49,304 bases of DNA from Verrucomicrobiota bacterium (GTDB taxonomy: Bacteria; Verrucomicrobiota; Verrucomicrobiia; Verrucomicrobiales; DEV007), in assembly GCA_018970725.1 (NCBI GenBank), contig JAGWVU010000036.1, forward strand, positions 1-49,304, given 5' to 3'. Of this stretch, positions 42,160 to 49,015 are shown piece by piece. Each line of letters begins with the position of its first letter. Within the stretch, counting starts at the first letter, position 1. A program made the position numbers and the translations under genes. The notes beneath the pieces were generated by a model, which did not search any database, was not told the origin of the DNA, and was given only the letters and a program-made list of their open reading frames with translations.

Positions 42160-43269
42160 TCAGGCCGACGGCGCCGGATACCCCGGATAAACCGGCGGGA
42201 TGGCCGGTGGCACCGGAGGAGCGGGTGGCGCCACCGGAGCCGGGGCGGCCGTTGGAACCGTGGCAATCGTCTGCAGGATCCGGCTGGCGATCTGATACGG
42301 ATCCCCTTGGGAATTCGGACGACGGTCCTCGAGGTAGCCCCGGTAGTTGTTCTCCACGAAACTGTGGGGAACCCGGATTGAGGCGCCGCGGTTGGCCACA
42401 CCGTAGTTGAACTTGTCGATCGACTGGGTCTCGTGCAACCCGGTCAGACGAAGATGGTTATCCGGGCCGTAGACGGCAATGTGCTCGTTCTTGTACTTGT
42501 CGAAAGCGGCCATCAGGGCCTCGAAATAAGCCTGACCACCCACCTCACGCAGATACTTGGTGGAGAAGTTCGCGTGCATCCCGGAACCGTTCCAATCCAC
42601 GTCCTTGCCAAGCGGCTTGCAGTGGAAGTTCACATCCACCTTGTATTTTTCGCAGAGACGGATGAGGAGGTAGCGGGCCATCCAGATCTGGTCGGCAGCG
42701 GTCCGTGAACCCTTGCCAAAGATTTGGAATTCCCACTGCCCCTTCGCCACCTCGGCGTTGATGCCTTCGTGATTGATCCCAGCGGCCAAACAAAGGTCAA
42801 GGTGGGTGTCCACGATCTCGCGGGCAATGTCGCCCACGTTCTTGTAGCCCACGCCGGTGTAATACTCACCCTGCGGCGGCGGGAAACCACCACCCGACGG
42901 GAACCCAAGCGGCACCCCGTCCTTGTAGAGGAAATATTCCTGCTCAAAGCCGAACCAGGCATCCGGATCATCGAGGATCGTCGCCCGGCCGTTGCTCGGG
43001 TGCGGCGTCACTTTGTCGGGCATGTAAACCTCGCACATCACCAACACCCCGTTGGTCTTCGTCGGATCTGGATACACCGCCACCGGCTTCAGCATGCAGT
43101 CGGAACTCCGCCCCTCGGCTTGCCGGGTCGAGCTCCCGTCGAATCCCCACCAAGGCAACTCCGCCAGCGTCGGGAAACTCGCGTATTCCTTGATTTGGGT
43201 TTTGCCGCGGAGATTCGGCACTGGCTCGTAACCGTCAAGCCAGATGTATTCCAGTTTGTATTTGGCCAT
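42160..43269 (-). CDS. glnA: Glutamine synthetase, GSII (eukaryote-like) type
   Basis: This 369-residue GSII-type glutamine synthetase makes glutamine from glutamate, ammonia and ATP. It starts AKYKLEYIWLDGYEPVPNLRGKT like eukaryotic and some bacterial GSII enzymes. Catalytic motifs are WWGFDGSST, the FGFEQEYFLY metal site, INHEGINAEV, NGSGMHANFS, GPDNHLRLTG and NRGASIRVP. Family length is about 330-370; here residues about 337-369 form a Pro/Ala tail, TVPTAAPAPVAPPAPP followed by more Pro. A sigma-54-like site lies about 90 bp upstream, fitting nitrogen control. Start MAKYKLEY is the family start. The adjacent plus-strand gene is divergent. Confidence 0.93.
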   Translation of the reverse strand: MAKYKLEYIWLDGYEPVPNLRGKTQIKEYASFPTLAELPWWGFDGSSTRQAEGRSSDCMLKPVAVYPDPTKTNGVLVMCEVYMPDKVTPHPSNGRATILDDPDAWFGFEQEYFLYKDGVPLGFPSGGGFPPPQGEYYTGVGYKNVGDIAREIVDTHLDLCLAAGINHEGINAEVAKGQWEFQIFGKGSRTAADQIWMARYLLIRLCEKYKVDVNFHCKPLGKDVDWNGSGMHANFSTKYLREVGGQAYFEALMAAFDKYKNEHIAVYGPDNHLRLTGLHETQSIDKFNYGVANRGASIRVPHSFVENNYRGYLEDRRPNSQGDPYQIASRILQTIATVPTAAPAPVAPPAPPVPPAIPPVYPGYPAPSA

Positions 43270-43356
43270 AGTTTTGATCGTGTATCTGTCTGTTTTTCGG
43301 CGGACTGCGCGGCTTTCTGCCACTGATCAGGGATTTTTCCGCACCCCATCTGCCAA

Positions 43357-43372
43357 AGCAGGATTCTTGCCA
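43357..43372 (-). promoter_or_regulatory. Sigma-54 (-24/-12) promoter candidate for glnA
   Basis: The minus strand reads TGGCAAGAATCCTGCT. It keeps the invariant GG and GC dinucleotides with exactly ten bases between them, and matches the TGGCACGnnnnTTGCA consensus at all but three specified positions. It sits about 88 bp upstream of the glnA start codon, leaving a leader of roughly 75 bases. glnA is a classic sigma-54/NtrC target (established knowledge). I did not find a clear upstream activator binding site. Confidence 0.55.
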
Positions 43373-43465
43373 GCTTTCCTTGAAAACTCCACCTTTTTCG
43401 ACGCAAAAATCATTCCAGCGTTCCCCGCTTGCCCTTCGCTCCTGCCAGACCATCGTTTCCCCCTC

Positions 43466-43852
43466 ATGCGCGACGTCAAAGACACCCAGCGCTCCCTCGT
43501 CCGCATCGGTTACGACGGTCGCGTTTGGAAAACCTTCCGTGGTCCCGAGGCGGAAACCCGCTTCGCCAATGAAGTGCGCGTTTTGCGCCACCTCGAAGAC
43601 CGCGGCTGTCCATTTGTGCCCCGCCTCATCGAGTCCGACCCGGAATCCCTCCGCATCGTGACCACAAACTGCGGCCAGCGGGTGGAACACCTCGACGACG
43701 CCCGCGCCCGGCAGATCTTCGCCGAACTCGAGACCTACGGCGTCCGCCATGACGATGCCGAGGTCCGCAACATCACCTACCGGGCGGCCGACGGCAGGTT
43801 CTGCATCATCGACTTCGAATTCGCCACCATCCTCGATGGATCAACCAACTGA
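43466..43852 (+). CDS. Minimal protein-kinase-like protein
   Basis: This 128-residue protein packs the key kinase landmarks into half a normal domain: Lys22 in VWKTF (beta-3), Glu36 in FANEVRVL (alpha-C), the exact HxDxxxxN catalytic loop (His95, Asp97, Asn102) in VRHDDAEVRNI, and Asp116-Phe-Glu in IIDFEFA. The chain ends ten residues later, so the activation loop and C-lobe helices are missing, as in RIO- or Bud32-like atypical kinases. Start MRDVKDTQRS is inferred from the N-terminal strand. It overlaps the following PP2C phosphatase gene by 17 bp, so the two are co-translated. Activity is inferred from motifs only. Confidence 0.7.
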   Translation: MRDVKDTQRSLVRIGYDGRVWKTFRGPEAETRFANEVRVLRHLEDRGCPFVPRLIESDPESLRIVTTNCGQRVEHLDDARARQIFAELETYGVRHDDAEVRNITYRAADGRFCIIDFEFATILDGSTN

Positions 43853-44660
43853 CGTCCCCGCCCCAACACGCCTCCGCTGGTTCGGCTTGACCGATCGCGG
43901 CAAAATCCGCGCCAACAACGAGGACTCCTTCCTCGGGCTGCGGTTCGATGCCCGGGACGTGCATCGCCTCGGGAAGATCGGTGAAGCTTCCATCGCCGAG
44001 ATGGACTTCGCCTTCGCGGTGAGCGATGGCATGGGCGGCGCCATGGCGGGAGAATTCGCCAGCCGGATTACGGTGGACAAAATCACCCGCCTGCTGCCCC
44101 GCGCCTTCAAGCTGGCCGCCTCCGGGCTGGACGCGGGCCGGGGGGACGTTCTGGGCGAGCTCTTCACCGCCATCCACGCCTCCATGAACGAACTCGACCG
44201 CTCCTATCCGGAGTGCGCCGGGATGGGCGCCACCCTCAGCCTCGCCTGGTTCACCCCGGGCTGGATGTTCTTCGCCCACGTCGGCGACAGCCGCATCTAT
44301 TACCTCCCGGGCAGGGGAGAATTGAAGCAACTGACCATGGACGACACCTTCGTCGGCTGGCTCCACCGCAACGGCAAACTCTCCGAATACGAGGCCCGCA
44401 CCCACCCGGCCCGCAACCGCCTGCAAAAAGCCCTCGGAGGCGGCAACCAGTTCGTTTCCCCACAGCTCGGCGCCGTCGGCTATGAACCGGGCGACGCCTT
44501 CGTCCTCTGCACCGACGGCGTCACCGAAGGCCTCTACGATGAACAGATCGCCCGCTGCCTGCGCGATCCCGGTTCCAACCCGGCCGAACGCCTCGTCCGC
44601 TCCGCCTTGGACAATTCCGGGCGGGACAACACCACGGCCCTCGTGATCGAAGTCCTCTGA
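43836..44660 (+). CDS. PP2C-type Ser/Thr protein phosphatase
   Basis: This 274-residue PPM/PP2C metal-dependent phosphatase has motifs in order: GLTDRGKIRANNEDSFL (N-terminal metal/phosphate site), FAVSDGMGGAMAGEFAS (DGMGG), MGATLSLAWF, HVGDSRIYYL, LCTDGVTEGLYD and GRDNTTALVIEVL (C-terminal metal Asp). All the metal-binding aspartates are present, so it should be active on Ser/Thr phosphoproteins. It overlaps the minimal kinase gene by 17 bp, implying that the two act on the same substrate or on each other. Confidence 0.93.
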   Translation: MDQPTDVPAPTRLRWFGLTDRGKIRANNEDSFLGLRFDARDVHRLGKIGEASIAEMDFAFAVSDGMGGAMAGEFASRITVDKITRLLPRAFKLAASGLDAGRGDVLGELFTAIHASMNELDRSYPECAGMGATLSLAWFTPGWMFFAHVGDSRIYYLPGRGELKQLTMDDTFVGWLHRNGKLSEYEARTHPARNRLQKALGGGNQFVSPQLGAVGYEPGDAFVLCTDGVTEGLYDEQIARCLRDPGSNPAERLVRSALDNSGRDNTTALVIEVL

Positions 44661-44928: not shown

Positions 44929-45657
44929 TTATTCGGGCTTCTTCCGGATAGACTCCTCGATCGCGATCACTTGCAGACACGCCCCGCCATCGTCCACCCG
45001 CCAGCGGATCTCGTGCCCCGCGTAAGTCAGGCCGTATTCCCGCCCTCCGTCGTCCCGCCGATAGGCCGGCCGCGGGTCCAACCCCAGAATCCGCTCCAAC
45101 TCCCCCGCCAGACGATGCCCTTCCAATCCGGGCCCAAAGGTCACTTCCAACCGCCCCCCCGGCGCCTTACCCGCGAATCCCCCGCTCTCCTCCTCCCCGG
45201 CACCCGGCCGGTCCGCCCACCCCAACCACGGCTTGATGTCATAAACCGGCGTGCCATCCACCCCATCCGCGCCCGATACCACGATACGGTCCGGAAACAC
45301 CCCGCACAACTTCACCAACGAGAGCCCCAACGGGTTCGGCCGATACGGCGATCGCGTCGCGAAGACCCCCACCCGCTCGTTCCCCCCGAGCCGGGGCGGA
45401 CGCACCGTCGAACGTCCTCCGCGTCCCGGCTCGTTCAAGTGAAATCCGAACAACAACCAGACATGCGAAAACCCCTCCAACCCCCGCACCGCCTCCCCGT
45501 TGTCCCAAGGACTCGCCAACTCCACCACGGATTCCACCCCCGGAACCAACCCCGGCTGCCGGGGCGTCCCGAACTTCTCCGCGAACGGACTCCGCAAATA
45601 GCCGATGGGCACAAGATGCACGGACGGATCAATAGCTTGGCATCCCTTGAATCGCAA
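44929..45657 (-). CDS. trmO: tRNA (t6A37) N6-methyltransferase, TrmO/TsaA family
   Basis: This 242-residue SAM-dependent enzyme of the TsaA/TrmO (UPF0066) fold methylates t6A at tRNA position 37. Motifs are PIGYLRSPFAEKFGTPRQPGL, the LEGFSHVWLLFGFH strand, RPPRLGGNERVGVFATRSPYRPNPLGLS and YDIKPWL. The C-terminal half carries a 90-residue domain ending EESIRKKPE. A TTG start at 45657 is assumed; no in-frame ATG exists nearby, and GTG at about 45621 is an alternative. It lies divergent from a tRNA gene 18 bp away. Confidence 0.88.
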   Translation of the reverse strand: MRFKGCQAIDPSVHLVPIGYLRSPFAEKFGTPRQPGLVPGVESVVELASPWDNGEAVRGLEGFSHVWLLFGFHLNEPGRGGRSTVRPPRLGGNERVGVFATRSPYRPNPLGLSLVKLCGVFPDRIVVSGADGVDGTPVYDIKPWLGWADRPGAGEEESGGFAGKAPGGRLEVTFGPGLEGHRLAGELERILGLDPRPAYRRDDGGREYGLTYAGHEIRWRVDDGGACLQVIAIEESIRKKPE

Positions 45658-45675
45658 CGTAGACTCCCTTCAGCG

Positions 45676-45748
45676 GGGCCTGTAGCTCAACGGTCAGAGC
45701 AGAGGACTCATAATCCTTTGGTTCCGGGTTCGAATCCCGGCGGGCCCA
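45676..45748 (+). tRNA. tRNA with CAT anticodon (Ile2 or elongator Met)
   Basis: Full cloverleaf: acceptor GGGCCTG/CGGGCCC (one G-T), D arm GCTC/GAGC, anticodon loop CTCATAA giving CAT, T arm CCGGG/CCCGG with TTCGAAT. The discriminator base is A, and CCA is not encoded. CAT can be elongator Met or lysidine-modified Ile2; GGGCCTGTAGCTCA and ACTCATAATCC resemble both, so the choice is open. It is the insertion point of the remnant integrase immediately downstream. Confidence 0.92.
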
Positions 45749-45776
45749 CTCCCTCAAAATCAGGGACTTATGACGA

Positions 45777-46290
45777 TTGGACCGAGGGGTTGATACCCCA
45801 CTTGAAGCAGTGTCCGACAAATTTCCGACAAACGCGGCCCGGAACCCGGAGCCAGAACAGAGCCAGCCCCCCCCTTCCAACGGCAGGTCAAAGCAGCGGA
45901 AACCCTTTCAGGTCGTCCGGTTTCTTTCGGTCAACATCCCGGTTTACGCTTTCGAGCACCACGGCAAGATCCGCTACACGATCGCCTTCTACCTGAACGG
46001 AGGGCGGCAGCGGAGGGAGTTCACCGACCTTGAGGTCGCCAAGCGAGAGGCCAAGCTAGCCGCGTCCGAGGACTACGTCCAGTGCCGGAAGCTGCTTGGC
46101 AACGTCCCCCTGCGTCAGGCGGTCGAGGACTTTTGCCGCCGGACCCTTGGCGTGAAGCTTGGCGTGAAGGTCCCCGAGGTCGCGCAGGAGGTGATCGCCG
46201 CCAAGGAAGAGGACGGCATGAGCGGCGATTTCTTGGTTCGGCTTCGAAGCCCCCTCGGGATCTTCGGGCTCGCCTTTCCCGGTCCGATTA
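45777..46290 (+). pseudogene. Truncated tyrosine-recombinase integrase
   Basis: The frame encodes the N-terminal part of a verrucomicrobial-type phage integrase: an arm-like beta domain (YAFEHHGKIRYTIAFYLNGG, then REFTDLEVAKREAKLAA), a helical linker, and a SAM-like core-binding segment (EVAQEVIAAKEEDGMSG, LRSPLGIFGLAFPG). It breaks near 46285, before any catalytic Arg/His/Tyr residue. The gene begins about 30 bp after a tRNA gene in the same orientation, the classical layout of an integrated island. A TTG or upstream start is uncertain. It is a dead remnant. Confidence 0.65.
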
Positions 46291-46391
46291 TGGATCCGGA
46301 GAACCCTTCGCTGGGAATCGTGAAAAATCCGGGTCGCTTGCTCATCGTTGGCTTGCGCCAGCGCCTGCAGGATGCTTCCTTCTGCTGTCAT
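46284..46391 (-). pseudogene. Inverted fragment resembling a histidine-kinase N-terminus
   Basis: On the minus strand, from ATG 46391 the frame reads MTAEGSILQALAQANDEQAT, then RIFHDSQRRVLRIHNRT before running into integrase DNA. The sequence resembles the cytoplasmic N-terminal helix of verrucomicrobial sensor kinases, where RIHNRTD leads into the first membrane helix. Only about 36 residues remain. Identification is by pattern memory and moderate; that this frame is interrupted at the integrase junction is directly visible. Confidence 0.4.
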
Positions 46392-46420
46392 TTCGTATGG
46401 ATTGAAGGTAGACCCTTCTT

Positions 46421-46446
46421 GAGGACTCCGCGAGTGTGGAGTCCTC
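46421..46446. repeat. Perfect 9-bp inverted repeat (REP-like hairpin)
   Basis: GAGGACTCC (46421-46429) and GGAGTCCTC (46438-46446) form a perfect 9-bp stem with loop GCGAGTGT. There is no T-tract. It could be a terminator for the lost upstream gene, a REP-type element, or an operator for the ATPase gene 52 bp downstream. Confidence 0.6.
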
Positions 46447-46498
46447 ACCATCCATCCAAGGATTGTAACGGTGTCAGGGACGCTTCCTTCGTTCAGCC

Positions 46499-49015
46499 AT
46501 GAACATCCATCTGCTATCCATCGAAGAAGCGTTGCGGCATGTAGAATCGCAGGCCGGAGGGCTTTCGGCGAGTCATGCGGCGGAACGGCTGGCTTTGCAA
46601 AAGGCGAGGCAAAGCAAACGAGGTGACGGCGGAGCGTGCCGACTGCTGCTCAATCAATTCCGCAGCCCGCTGGTGATCCTGCTGCTGGTGGCGATGTCGA
46701 TCTCGCTGGCGCTGGGCGATCGCATGGATGTGCTGATCGTGTTGATGGTGGTGTTGATGAGCACGCTACTGGGCTTCTGGCAGGAATACCGTGCCGCGAA
46801 TGCGGTGGCGGCGCTGCTAGCGGTGATCCAGGCGAAGGCGACGGCGCTGCGCGACGGCAAGGAGACCGATCTGCCAGTGGATGAGATCGTGCAAGGTGAT
46901 GTGGTGGTGCTGCGGGCGGGCGACACCATTCCCGGCGATGGGCTGCTGCTCGAATCGAAGGACCTCTTCGTCGATGAATCCACGCTGACGGGCGAAAGCT
47001 ACCCAGCGGAGAAAAAAGTCGGCGTGGTGGCGGCTGGCGCGCGCCAGAGTGAACGAACCAACTCCGTCTTCGAGGGCACACACGTCGTCAGCGGCACAGC
47101 ACGCGTGCTCATCGTCACCACAGGCGATGAAACGGAATTTGGTGGTATTTCGGAGCGGTTGCGGCTGCGCGCGCCTGAAACGGACTTTGAGCGAGGACTG
47201 CGCGGCTTTGGCGAGATGCTCATCCGCATGACGCTGGTCTTCGTCATCGCCATCTTCGCCATCAATGTCTTCTTCCATCGCCCCGTGCTGGAGGCGTTCA
47301 TGTTCGCACTGGCGCTCGCGGTGGGCATGACGCCGGAGCTGTTGCCCGCCATCGTTAGCATCACACTGGCGCGGGGCGCGAAGCACATGGCGCAGGAGCA
47401 TGTCATCGTGCGCCGCCTTCCGGCCATCGAAAACTTCGGCAGCATGAACGTGCTGTGCTCCGACAAAACGGGCACGCTCACGGAGGGCCAGGTCAAGCTG
47501 CAGGGCACGCACGACGCACTGGGCAACCCAAGCGACACCGTGCGCCTGCATGCCATACTCAATGCCACGTTTGAAAGCGGCTTTGCCAATCCCATTGACG
47601 CCGCGCTGCGTGCCGAGCCTGGCATCGACCTCAGCGGCTTCACGAAATGCGATGAGGTGCCGTATGACTTCATCCGCAAGCGCCTCAGCGTCGTCGTGGA
47701 ACACGCGGTGGTGGACCGACGTCACCTGATGATCACCAAGGGCGCTTTCGTCAACGTGCTGGCCGTTTGCACGAAAGTGGCCACGCCGGACGGGGAAAAG
47801 CCGATGGAGAGCATGCGCGAGGCCTTGCAGCAGCGCTTCGCTGACTTCAGCAATGCCGGACACCGCGTGCTTGGCCTCGCCACCCGCGATGTGACGGATG
47901 ATCCGGTGATCACCAAGGACGACGAGCAGGAGATGACCTTCGCGGGCTTCCTGCTGTTTGACGATCCGCCCAAAGCGGGGGCCATGGAGGCCATTCAGGA
48001 ACTGCGGACGCTCGGCATCGGCTTCAAGGTCATCACCGGCGACAACCGCCTCGTGGGGCAATCTCTTGGCATGCAGATGGGCATCGCCAAACCGGAAGTG
48101 CTCACCGGCGATGCCCTGCACGAGATGAGCGACACCGCGCTGATCGCCCGCGTGGGCGAGGTGGACATCTTCGCGGAGATCGAGCCGAACCAGAAAGAGC
48201 GGGTCATCATCGCGCTTCGAAAGGCCGGGAACGTCGTCGGCTATCTCGGCGACGGCATCAACGACGCCTCGGCGCTGCATGCCGCCGATGTCGGCATCTC
48301 CGTGGATGGTGCCGTGGATGTGGCCAAGGAGGCCGCGGACATCGTGCTGCTGCGTCACGACCTCGCCGTGCTCGCCCGTGGTGTGCGCAACGGCCGCATC
48401 ACCTTCGCCAACACGATCAAATACATCTTCATCACCACCAGCGCGAACTTCGGCAACATGTTCAGCATGGCCGGTGCCTCCCTGTTCCTGCCCTTCCTGC
48501 CGCTCCTGCCAAAGCAGATCCTGCTCAACAACCTCCTCTCCGACCTGCCCGCACTCACCATCGCAACGGACTCCGTCGATCCCGAGCAGGTGAACCGCCC
48601 GCGCCGCTGGGATCATCAGTTCATCCGCCGCTTCATGATCGCCTTCGGCCTTGTCAGCTCCGTGTTCGACTACCTCACCTTCGGCGTATTGATGCTCATG
48701 CTGCACGCCAGCGAGGCGCAGTTCCAGACCGGCTGGTTCGTCGAATCCCTCATGACGGAGCTGTTCATCGTCATGGTCATCCGCACGCATCGCTCGATCT
48801 TCCAGAGCAAACCGGGCCGCATCCTCGCCATCGCCACGCTCATCGTCTCCGGCACCACCATCATCCTGCCCTACACCGCCATAGGCGCCCTGTTTGGTCT
48901 CGTCCCGCTGCCGTGGACCTTCATGCTCACGCTCATCGTCATCACACTGCTGTATCTCCTCACGAGCGAGATGGTGAAGCGTGTCATGTTTGTCCGCTTG
49001 GAGCAGCGCATCTGA
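46499..49015 (+). CDS. mgtA: Mg2+-importing P-type ATPase (MgtA-like, P3B)
   Basis: This 838-residue membrane pump has all P-type hallmarks: actuator TGES at residues 164-167, the M4 motif VGMTPELLPAIV typical of MgtA rather than Ca2+/Na+ pumps, phosphorylation site DKTGT with Asp322, TGDN in the nucleotide domain and GDGIND at about 584-589. Ten hydrophobic segments are visible, in two pairs before the catalytic domains and six after. It probably drives Mg2+ influx with ATP. It uses more CTG Leu and GGC Gly codons in its first half and less CCGG than neighbouring genes, consistent with acquisition with the flanking mobile DNA. Start ATG lacks a Shine-Dalgarno motif. Confidence 0.9.
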   Translation: MNIHLLSIEEALRHVESQAGGLSASHAAERLALQKARQSKRGDGGACRLLLNQFRSPLVILLLVAMSISLALGDRMDVLIVLMVVLMSTLLGFWQEYRAANAVAALLAVIQAKATALRDGKETDLPVDEIVQGDVVVLRAGDTIPGDGLLLESKDLFVDESTLTGESYPAEKKVGVVAAGARQSERTNSVFEGTHVVSGTARVLIVTTGDETEFGGISERLRLRAPETDFERGLRGFGEMLIRMTLVFVIAIFAINVFFHRPVLEAFMFALALAVGMTPELLPAIVSITLARGAKHMAQEHVIVRRLPAIENFGSMNVLCSDKTGTLTEGQVKLQGTHDALGNPSDTVRLHAILNATFESGFANPIDAALRAEPGIDLSGFTKCDEVPYDFIRKRLSVVVEHAVVDRRHLMITKGAFVNVLAVCTKVATPDGEKPMESMREALQQRFADFSNAGHRVLGLATRDVTDDPVITKDDEQEMTFAGFLLFDDPPKAGAMEAIQELRTLGIGFKVITGDNRLVGQSLGMQMGIAKPEVLTGDALHEMSDTALIARVGEVDIFAEIEPNQKERVIIALRKAGNVVGYLGDGINDASALHAADVGISVDGAVDVAKEAADIVLLRHDLAVLARGVRNGRITFANTIKYIFITTSANFGNMFSMAGASLFLPFLPLLPKQILLNNLLSDLPALTIATDSVDPEQVNRPRRWDHQFIRRFMIAFGLVSSVFDYLTFGVLMLMLHASEAQFQTGWFVESLMTELFIVMVIRTHRSIFQSKPGRILAIATLIVSGTTIILPYTAIGALFGLVPLPWTFMLTLIVITLLYLLTSEMVKRVMFVRLEQRI

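Follow-up and report, generated by a model that had tools for sequence, protein, structure and literature searches.

What can a bacterium do with a kinase-like protein of 128 residues, and why does its gene run into that of a PP2C-type phosphatase? The two genes lie in a stretch of 49,304 nucleotides from a Verrucomicrobiota bacterium, called here the window, and the original prediction, made from the letters of this stretch, wavered between one of the smallest kinases and a pseudokinase that regulates the phosphatase. It named the phosphatase as the partner, as we also find, but it missed a third gene, which encodes a type II glutamine synthetase (GSII) on the opposite strand (Table 1). The link of the small kinase, hereafter the mini-kinase, to both PP2C and GSII is strong. 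As to what the three do together, we are about evenly divided on whether an active minimal kinase and the PP2C form a reversible phosphorylation switch for GSII, a counterpart of GlnE for the type I enzyme, GSI.

Table 1. Features of the locus, as positions in the window
Feature	Position	Strand	Basis or remark
Type-II glutamine synthetase (GSII) gene	42160..43269	-	divergent neighbour; start MAKYK conserved
Intergenic region between GSII (-) and kinase-PP2C (+)	43270..43465	.	196 bp
Mini-kinase, 128 aa	43466..43852	+	ORF translation; APH match; AF2 model; homologues
Mini-kinase K22 codon (beta-3 Lys)	43529-43531	+	
Mini-kinase E36 codon (alpha-C Glu)	43571-43573	+	
Mini-kinase H95 codon	43748-43750	+	
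Mini-kinase D97 codon	43754-43756	+	
Mini-kinase N102 codon	43769-43771	+	
Mini-kinase D116-E118 codons (DFE)	43811-43819	+	
Overlap of kinase 3' end and PP2C 5' end, 17 nt	43836..43852	+	sequence
PP2C-type Ser/Thr phosphatase, 274 aa	43836..44660	+	PF13672, 63.4 bits, over cut-off
tRNA-Met	45676-45749		
Cation-transporting P-type ATPase	46499-49015		

Fold and conserved residues of the mini-kinase

Is such a short gene a gene at all? Its translation contains every motif that had been claimed for it: the beta-3 lysine (K22), the alpha-C glutamate (E36), a catalytic loop of the form HxDxxxxN (H95-D-D97-AEVR-N102) and an Asp-Phe-Glu metal motif (D116-F117-E118). A single scan through genomes of bacteria and archaea gave 195 relatives, and the 80 retained show 65-85% identity along their full length and are all from Verrucomicrobiota or Planctomycetota records. 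Against six relatives, dN/dS is 0.07-0.20, with the changes concentrated at third codon positions. If divergent members fetched from other genomes are taken in to make a set of 129 sequences, K5, K22, R32, E36, P52, G70, D97, R101, N102, T104, Y105, I115 and D116-F117-E118 are invariant (129/129), and H95 is kept in 128. With full-length relatives, low dN/dS, invariant catalytic residues and a confident model of a kinase fold, the reading frame is not a product of chance, and the pattern of conservation argues for an enzyme rather than a decayed kinase. Three cysteines, C48, C69 and C113, are near-invariant as well (128, 125 and 124 of the 129), which is unusual for a cytosolic kinase fold; a redox or metal role is possible.

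The AlphaFold2 (AF2) model of the chain alone takes a kinase fold, as had been expected, with a pLDDT of 93.4 and a pTM of 0.86. It contains, in order, an N-lobe sheet, helix C, one helix E, the catalytic loop and the metal-binding strand, and there the chain ends. By Foldseek the best solved match is Geoglobus Ark1, an archaeal RNA kinase (8yv5, E 2e-7, 27% identity), followed by Kae1-Bud32 and then by many protein kinases; in VIA-align against assorted kinases, Z values reach 12.8 over 121-126 residues, with ranks tied within one unit. All these matches come from fold comparison, since nothing significant was found when the mini-kinase sequence was searched against solved structures. An activation loop and a large C-lobe had been said to be absent. 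That is true of the activation segment and of helices F to I, but a C-lobe stub, made up of alpha-E, catalytic loop and metal-binding strand, exists in the model, according to which the kinase fold of the mini-kinase breaks off after subdomain VII. Is the remaining lobe hidden in the sequence that follows? The chain ends about 10 residues past DFE, and in 32 natural fusions the PP2C domain begins about 12-40 residues past DFE. Since PP2C directly follows the kinase in these fusions, there is no hidden C-lobe and the chain end is the true one.

Kannan et al. (2007; PMC1821047) described ten key residues of the protein-kinase-like superfamily, nearly every one of which is dispensable in some family. 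Seven of the ten are found here, namely K72, E91, P104, H164, D166, N171 and D184 in PKA numbering, which map to K22, E36, P52, H95, D97, N102 and D116 of the mini-kinase. G52 of the glycine loop, H158 and D220 are not found in it, there being neither a GxGxxG nor an LxxLH motif; D220, which belongs to helix F, has no counterpart because of the early chain end. Judged by its residues, the mini-kinase belongs to this superfamily.

Could it then be one of the small kinases already described? ArkI/Ark1 (COG2112, AQ578 family) is not only the nearest solved fold; it is also small, with a DFE metal motif and a reduced C-lobe, and its bacterial homologues are active (PMC9095486). That the mini-kinase likewise phosphorylates tRNA U47 at the 2' position is nevertheless very improbable. 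ArkI keeps subdomains IX/XI, an important C-terminal YKR helix and HGQ (PMC9095486), while the mini-kinase has HxD and nothing beyond subdomain VII, and on the two points of HxD and the YKR helix it was rejected as an ArkI. In addition, its pI is 5.6 (family median 6.3), and the genes linked to it are those of PP2C and GSII rather than RNA genes. Bud32/PRPK of KEOPS, which has a small kinase fold too, was rejected by the score of its model TIGR03724 (21.1 bits over residues 30-122, against a curated cut-off of 125 bits); the C-terminal part of Bud32 is absent here, and no Kae1 neighbour was seen.

A small-molecule kinase of the APH or Kdo type is suggested by Pfam, as APH (PF01636) matches the mini-kinase with 29.6 bits, over the gathering cut-off of 23.2, and matches all 54 of 54 family members (E<=1e-3), Kdo being found in 19. 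However, the match covers residues 72-122 only, that is, the catalytic loop and the metal strand, which excludes a normal APH, and the mini-kinase lacks the C-lobe in which APH holds its small substrates. It would also be hard to see what such an enzyme needs a PP2C partner for, and we give this reading hardly any credence. OspG-type effectors are small kinases which a partner protein makes more active (PMC9950578), and the OspG-type structure 4q5h aligns to the mini-kinase model at Z 10.5 (VIA-align), but its chain has 169 residues and it is a secreted effector from an unrelated context.

The PP2C partner

The phosphatase has all the metal-site residues of PP2C, D30, D64, G65, D227 and D264; the first four are invariant in 116 of 116 homologues, and D264 is present in 115 and gapped in one. 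It matches the Stp1 model (P0002) with E 4e-49 and 167.2 bits, below the equivalog cut-off of 230 bits. Its start in Table 1 is the one conserved in relatives, whereas the longer start given by the ORF caller (43749) is not, and the coding overlap that had been predicted with the kinase is confirmed. The same 17-nt overlap is found in L005, L006, L008, L019 and L051. Among the 80 retained loci, PP2C is directly downstream of the kinase in 79, and the 80th ends at a contig edge. Natural fusions of the two in frame as one ORF number 32 in the family, and the tree requires at least four, probably six, changes between the fused and separate states. The AF2 model of one fused protein shows two confident domains (pLDDT 93.9), with a moderate pTM of 0.76 which makes their placement relative to each other tentative. 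An orthologue of the PP2C (E<1e-40) was found in 18 of the 18 kinase genomes tested and in none of 39 genomes without the kinase, where the best E is 4e-29. Thus the pair is kept in relatives, and the expectation that its members function together is supported both by the nearly complete pairing and by the repeated, separate events of fusion or fission. In a planctomycete copy (L041/L099) the kinase frame runs for 233 aa and PP2C continues in another frame, which is a frameshift or an assembly error inside a fusion. A literature search, which covered few subscription journals, found no published description of the mini-kinase-PP2C pair.

Not every kinase of the family stays at this place. In one lineage (10 loci: L150, L152, L153, L157-L161, L164 and L165) the kinase comes directly after an mgtE-like gene, named as a magnesium transporter (MgtE) from sequence alone, and PP2C is not beside it; the mgtE-like gene and the kinase overlap, by 4 nt in several of these loci, or abut. 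Kinases of this type keep their motifs intact. In G177, G251 and G268, the three genomes with such a kinase in which positions were compared, a lone PP2C, 56-57% identical, is divergent to GSII. Therefore, the link between PP2C and GSII is kept in these genomes, and the kinase can act from elsewhere.

Is the mini-kinase, then, a pseudokinase or a nucleotide sensor that binds Mg-ATP and has allosteric control of the PP2C, with the PP2C acting on GSII or on another nitrogen protein that is phosphorylated elsewhere? The lack of a C-lobe substrate site and of a glycine loop agrees with such a role, and so do the fusion or coupling to PP2C and the survival of the PP2C-GSII adjacency where the kinase has moved away. 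But the catalytic Asp, the Asn and the metal Asp are invariant in all 129 sequences, which is unusual for a pseudokinase family, and a kinase with intact motifs persists beside mgtE, at a distance from PP2C. We consider a pseudokinase unlikely; between the two possibilities of the original prediction, the invariant catalytic residues favour one of the smallest kinases, a putatively active one.

The family is rare in Planctomycetota (4 of 294 genomes, a count which includes the centre genome). The members there are fusions nested among verrucomicrobial sequences in the tree, which points to transfer. No kinase of this family was found on plasmids in the plasmid collection, and none on phages apart from L183 of IMG/VR, a contig classed as viral which carries a mini-kinase at 65% identity and may be bacterial sequence. 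As for anti-phage defence, the mini-kinase has no PADLOC match, and the PP2C has a weak match to a candidate family.

The neighbouring glutamine synthetase and nitrogen control genes

Among the models of glutamine synthetases, GlnII (NF041605) is by far the best for the product of the divergent neighbour (E 4.4e-110, 367.9 bits); as this score is under the equivalog cut-off of 500, the product is named GSII-type and not a GlnII equivalog. How firmly is it tied to the kinase-PP2C pair? GSII lies next to the pair at 95 of 128 relative loci and in three gene orders: 82 are divergent, 10 have kinase-PP2C and then GS in the same direction, and 3, which are Planctomycetota fusions, have GS and then kinase-PP2C, again in one direction. 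At the other 33 loci GSII was not found within the fetched stretch, which in many cases is truncated upstream. An adjacency that is retained through rearrangement points to function rather than inertia. Among 80 verrucomicrobial genomes, all 41 that have the kinase carry GSII, versus 2 of the 39 without it (G015 and G023), and within the class the counts are 41 of 41 versus 0 of 7 (Fisher p 9e-21 and 1e-8, respectively, values that overstate independence since the genomes are related). Genome G327 contains two kinase-PP2C fusions (L142 and L143), each of them with a GSII gene of its own at its side; the second GSII is 48% identical to the query and has a different orientation.

It might also be supposed that the neighbourhood of GSII is merely an inherited gene order, and that the cellular role of the pair is unrelated to it. 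Indeed, the kinase can leave the locus, as in the mgtE type, and a scan for sigma-54 sites in 83 GSII/kinase intergenic regions gave no clear excess over shuffles. Yet inheritance has to face three different gene orders, the duplicate pairs of G327 and the fact that genomes within the class lack kinase, PP2C and GSII together, and we would be very surprised if it were the whole explanation. No Ser, Thr or Tyr specific to the kinase-linked GSII was found in comparison with rhizobial GSII-type enzymes; those encoded on rhizobial plasmids are 77-81% identical, and no such kinase was found on the same plasmids in the plasmid collection. In 40 of the 80 loci, mostly of Opitutales, a gamma-glutamylcyclotransferase-like gene follows PP2C about 0.9 kb past the kinase, which is a further hint of glutamine/glutamate metabolism. 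The genes downstream in the window (44929-49015) look unrelated, and include, besides those in Table 1, TrmO on the minus strand.

GlnE is the classic adenylyltransferase/adenylyl-removing enzyme of glutamine synthetase, and it acts on GSI. What has become of it in these bacteria? If canonical GSI is defined by a score over the curated cut-off, GlnE and canonical GSI are found in the same five genomes out of 51 (G004, G008, G013, G042 and G128), neither of them without the other, and 40 of the 41 mini-kinase genomes have neither of them, G128 being the exception; eleven other kinase genomes hold only GSI-like paralogues under the cut-off. Akkermansia-like genomes without the kinase carry GSIII instead. 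GlnD and PII, on the other hand, are kept in all 41 kinase genomes.

Might PII itself be the substrate? An active kinase could serve another protein of nitrogen signalling, such as PII, which cyanobacteria phosphorylate at T-loop Ser49, or could act on the PP2C. PII lies within 4 kb in 8 of the 80 loci, and Amt in 5. The sole PII found in the bacterium's own genome (L108:1465-1905) has the T-loop IYRGSEYTVDF, in which RGSEYT holds both Ser49, the residue phosphorylated in cyanobacteria, and Tyr51, the residue of uridylylation. The PP2C resembles in sequence the PP2C structures 2j82 and 2xzv (E 5e-28 and 7e-27), which are among the closest solved PP2C sequences and which we take to be cyanobacterial PphA. 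PphA dephosphorylates PII, whose kinase was unknown according to a 2015 review (PMC4285133); it is likewise a PP2C in nitrogen control, but one with neither a known kinase partner nor a fused kinase. Against such a substrate, every kinase genome has GlnD, so that PII can be uridylylated, and this weakens the idea that the kinase phosphorylates PII in place of uridylylation. Moreover, PII is also found in 23 of the 39 genomes without the kinase, and adjacency is far more to GSII than to PII (61 versus 8 of the 80 loci). We regard a substrate other than GSII in nitrogen signalling as quite improbable.

A putative phosphorylation switch on GSII

It is the combination of sensors that are kept (GlnD and PII), a GlnE that is missing, and a writer-plus-eraser pair beside the glutamine synthetase in use that leads to the preferred reading, a phosphorylation switch on GSII. 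The mini-kinase would phosphorylate GSII, or a protein that controls or binds GSII, and the PP2C would reverse this phosphorylation, the two acting together through translational coupling or within one chain. PP2C or the substrate itself may stand in for the missing C-lobe. The input is probably PII or glutamine, and the switch would probably stand downstream of GlnD/PII. Its catalysis, its substrate, the direction of regulation and the PII input are what we infer. The fuller form of the proposal, in which an active kinase of about 125 residues and PP2C replace GlnE in Verrucomicrobiota as a GSII switch under the control of GlnD/PII, we put forward tentatively and lean slightly against. The proposal of a GSII switch is weakened by the lack of a phosphosite specific to the linked GSII, by the two genomes that have GSII and no kinase, by the mgtE lineage, and by the missing glycine-rich loop and D220 region.

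The closest functional analogies would be GlnE for GSI and AceK for isocitrate dehydrogenase. Like the pair, GlnE is a dedicated two-domain writer and eraser for a glutamine synthetase, but its two domains are both nucleotidyltransferases, while here a kinase and a PP2C are combined and the putative target is GSII, which to our knowledge is not adenylylated. AceK, the isocitrate dehydrogenase kinase/phosphatase, is also a kinase-fold regulator of one metabolic enzyme that writes and erases. AceK carries out both reactions in a single kinase active site, whereas in the kinase-PP2C pair a separate PP2C domain would erase.

If the switch exists, it would be a previously unknown covalent control for GSII, which takes the place of canonical GSI in 40 of the 41 genomes with a mini-kinase, and it would explain why GlnD and PII are retained in bacteria from which GlnE is gone. 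The mini-kinase would then rank with the smallest active kinases known, and it would make plain how small a part of the kinase fold suffices for phosphotransfer, with the missing half of the kinase perhaps lent by its partner phosphatase or by its substrate.
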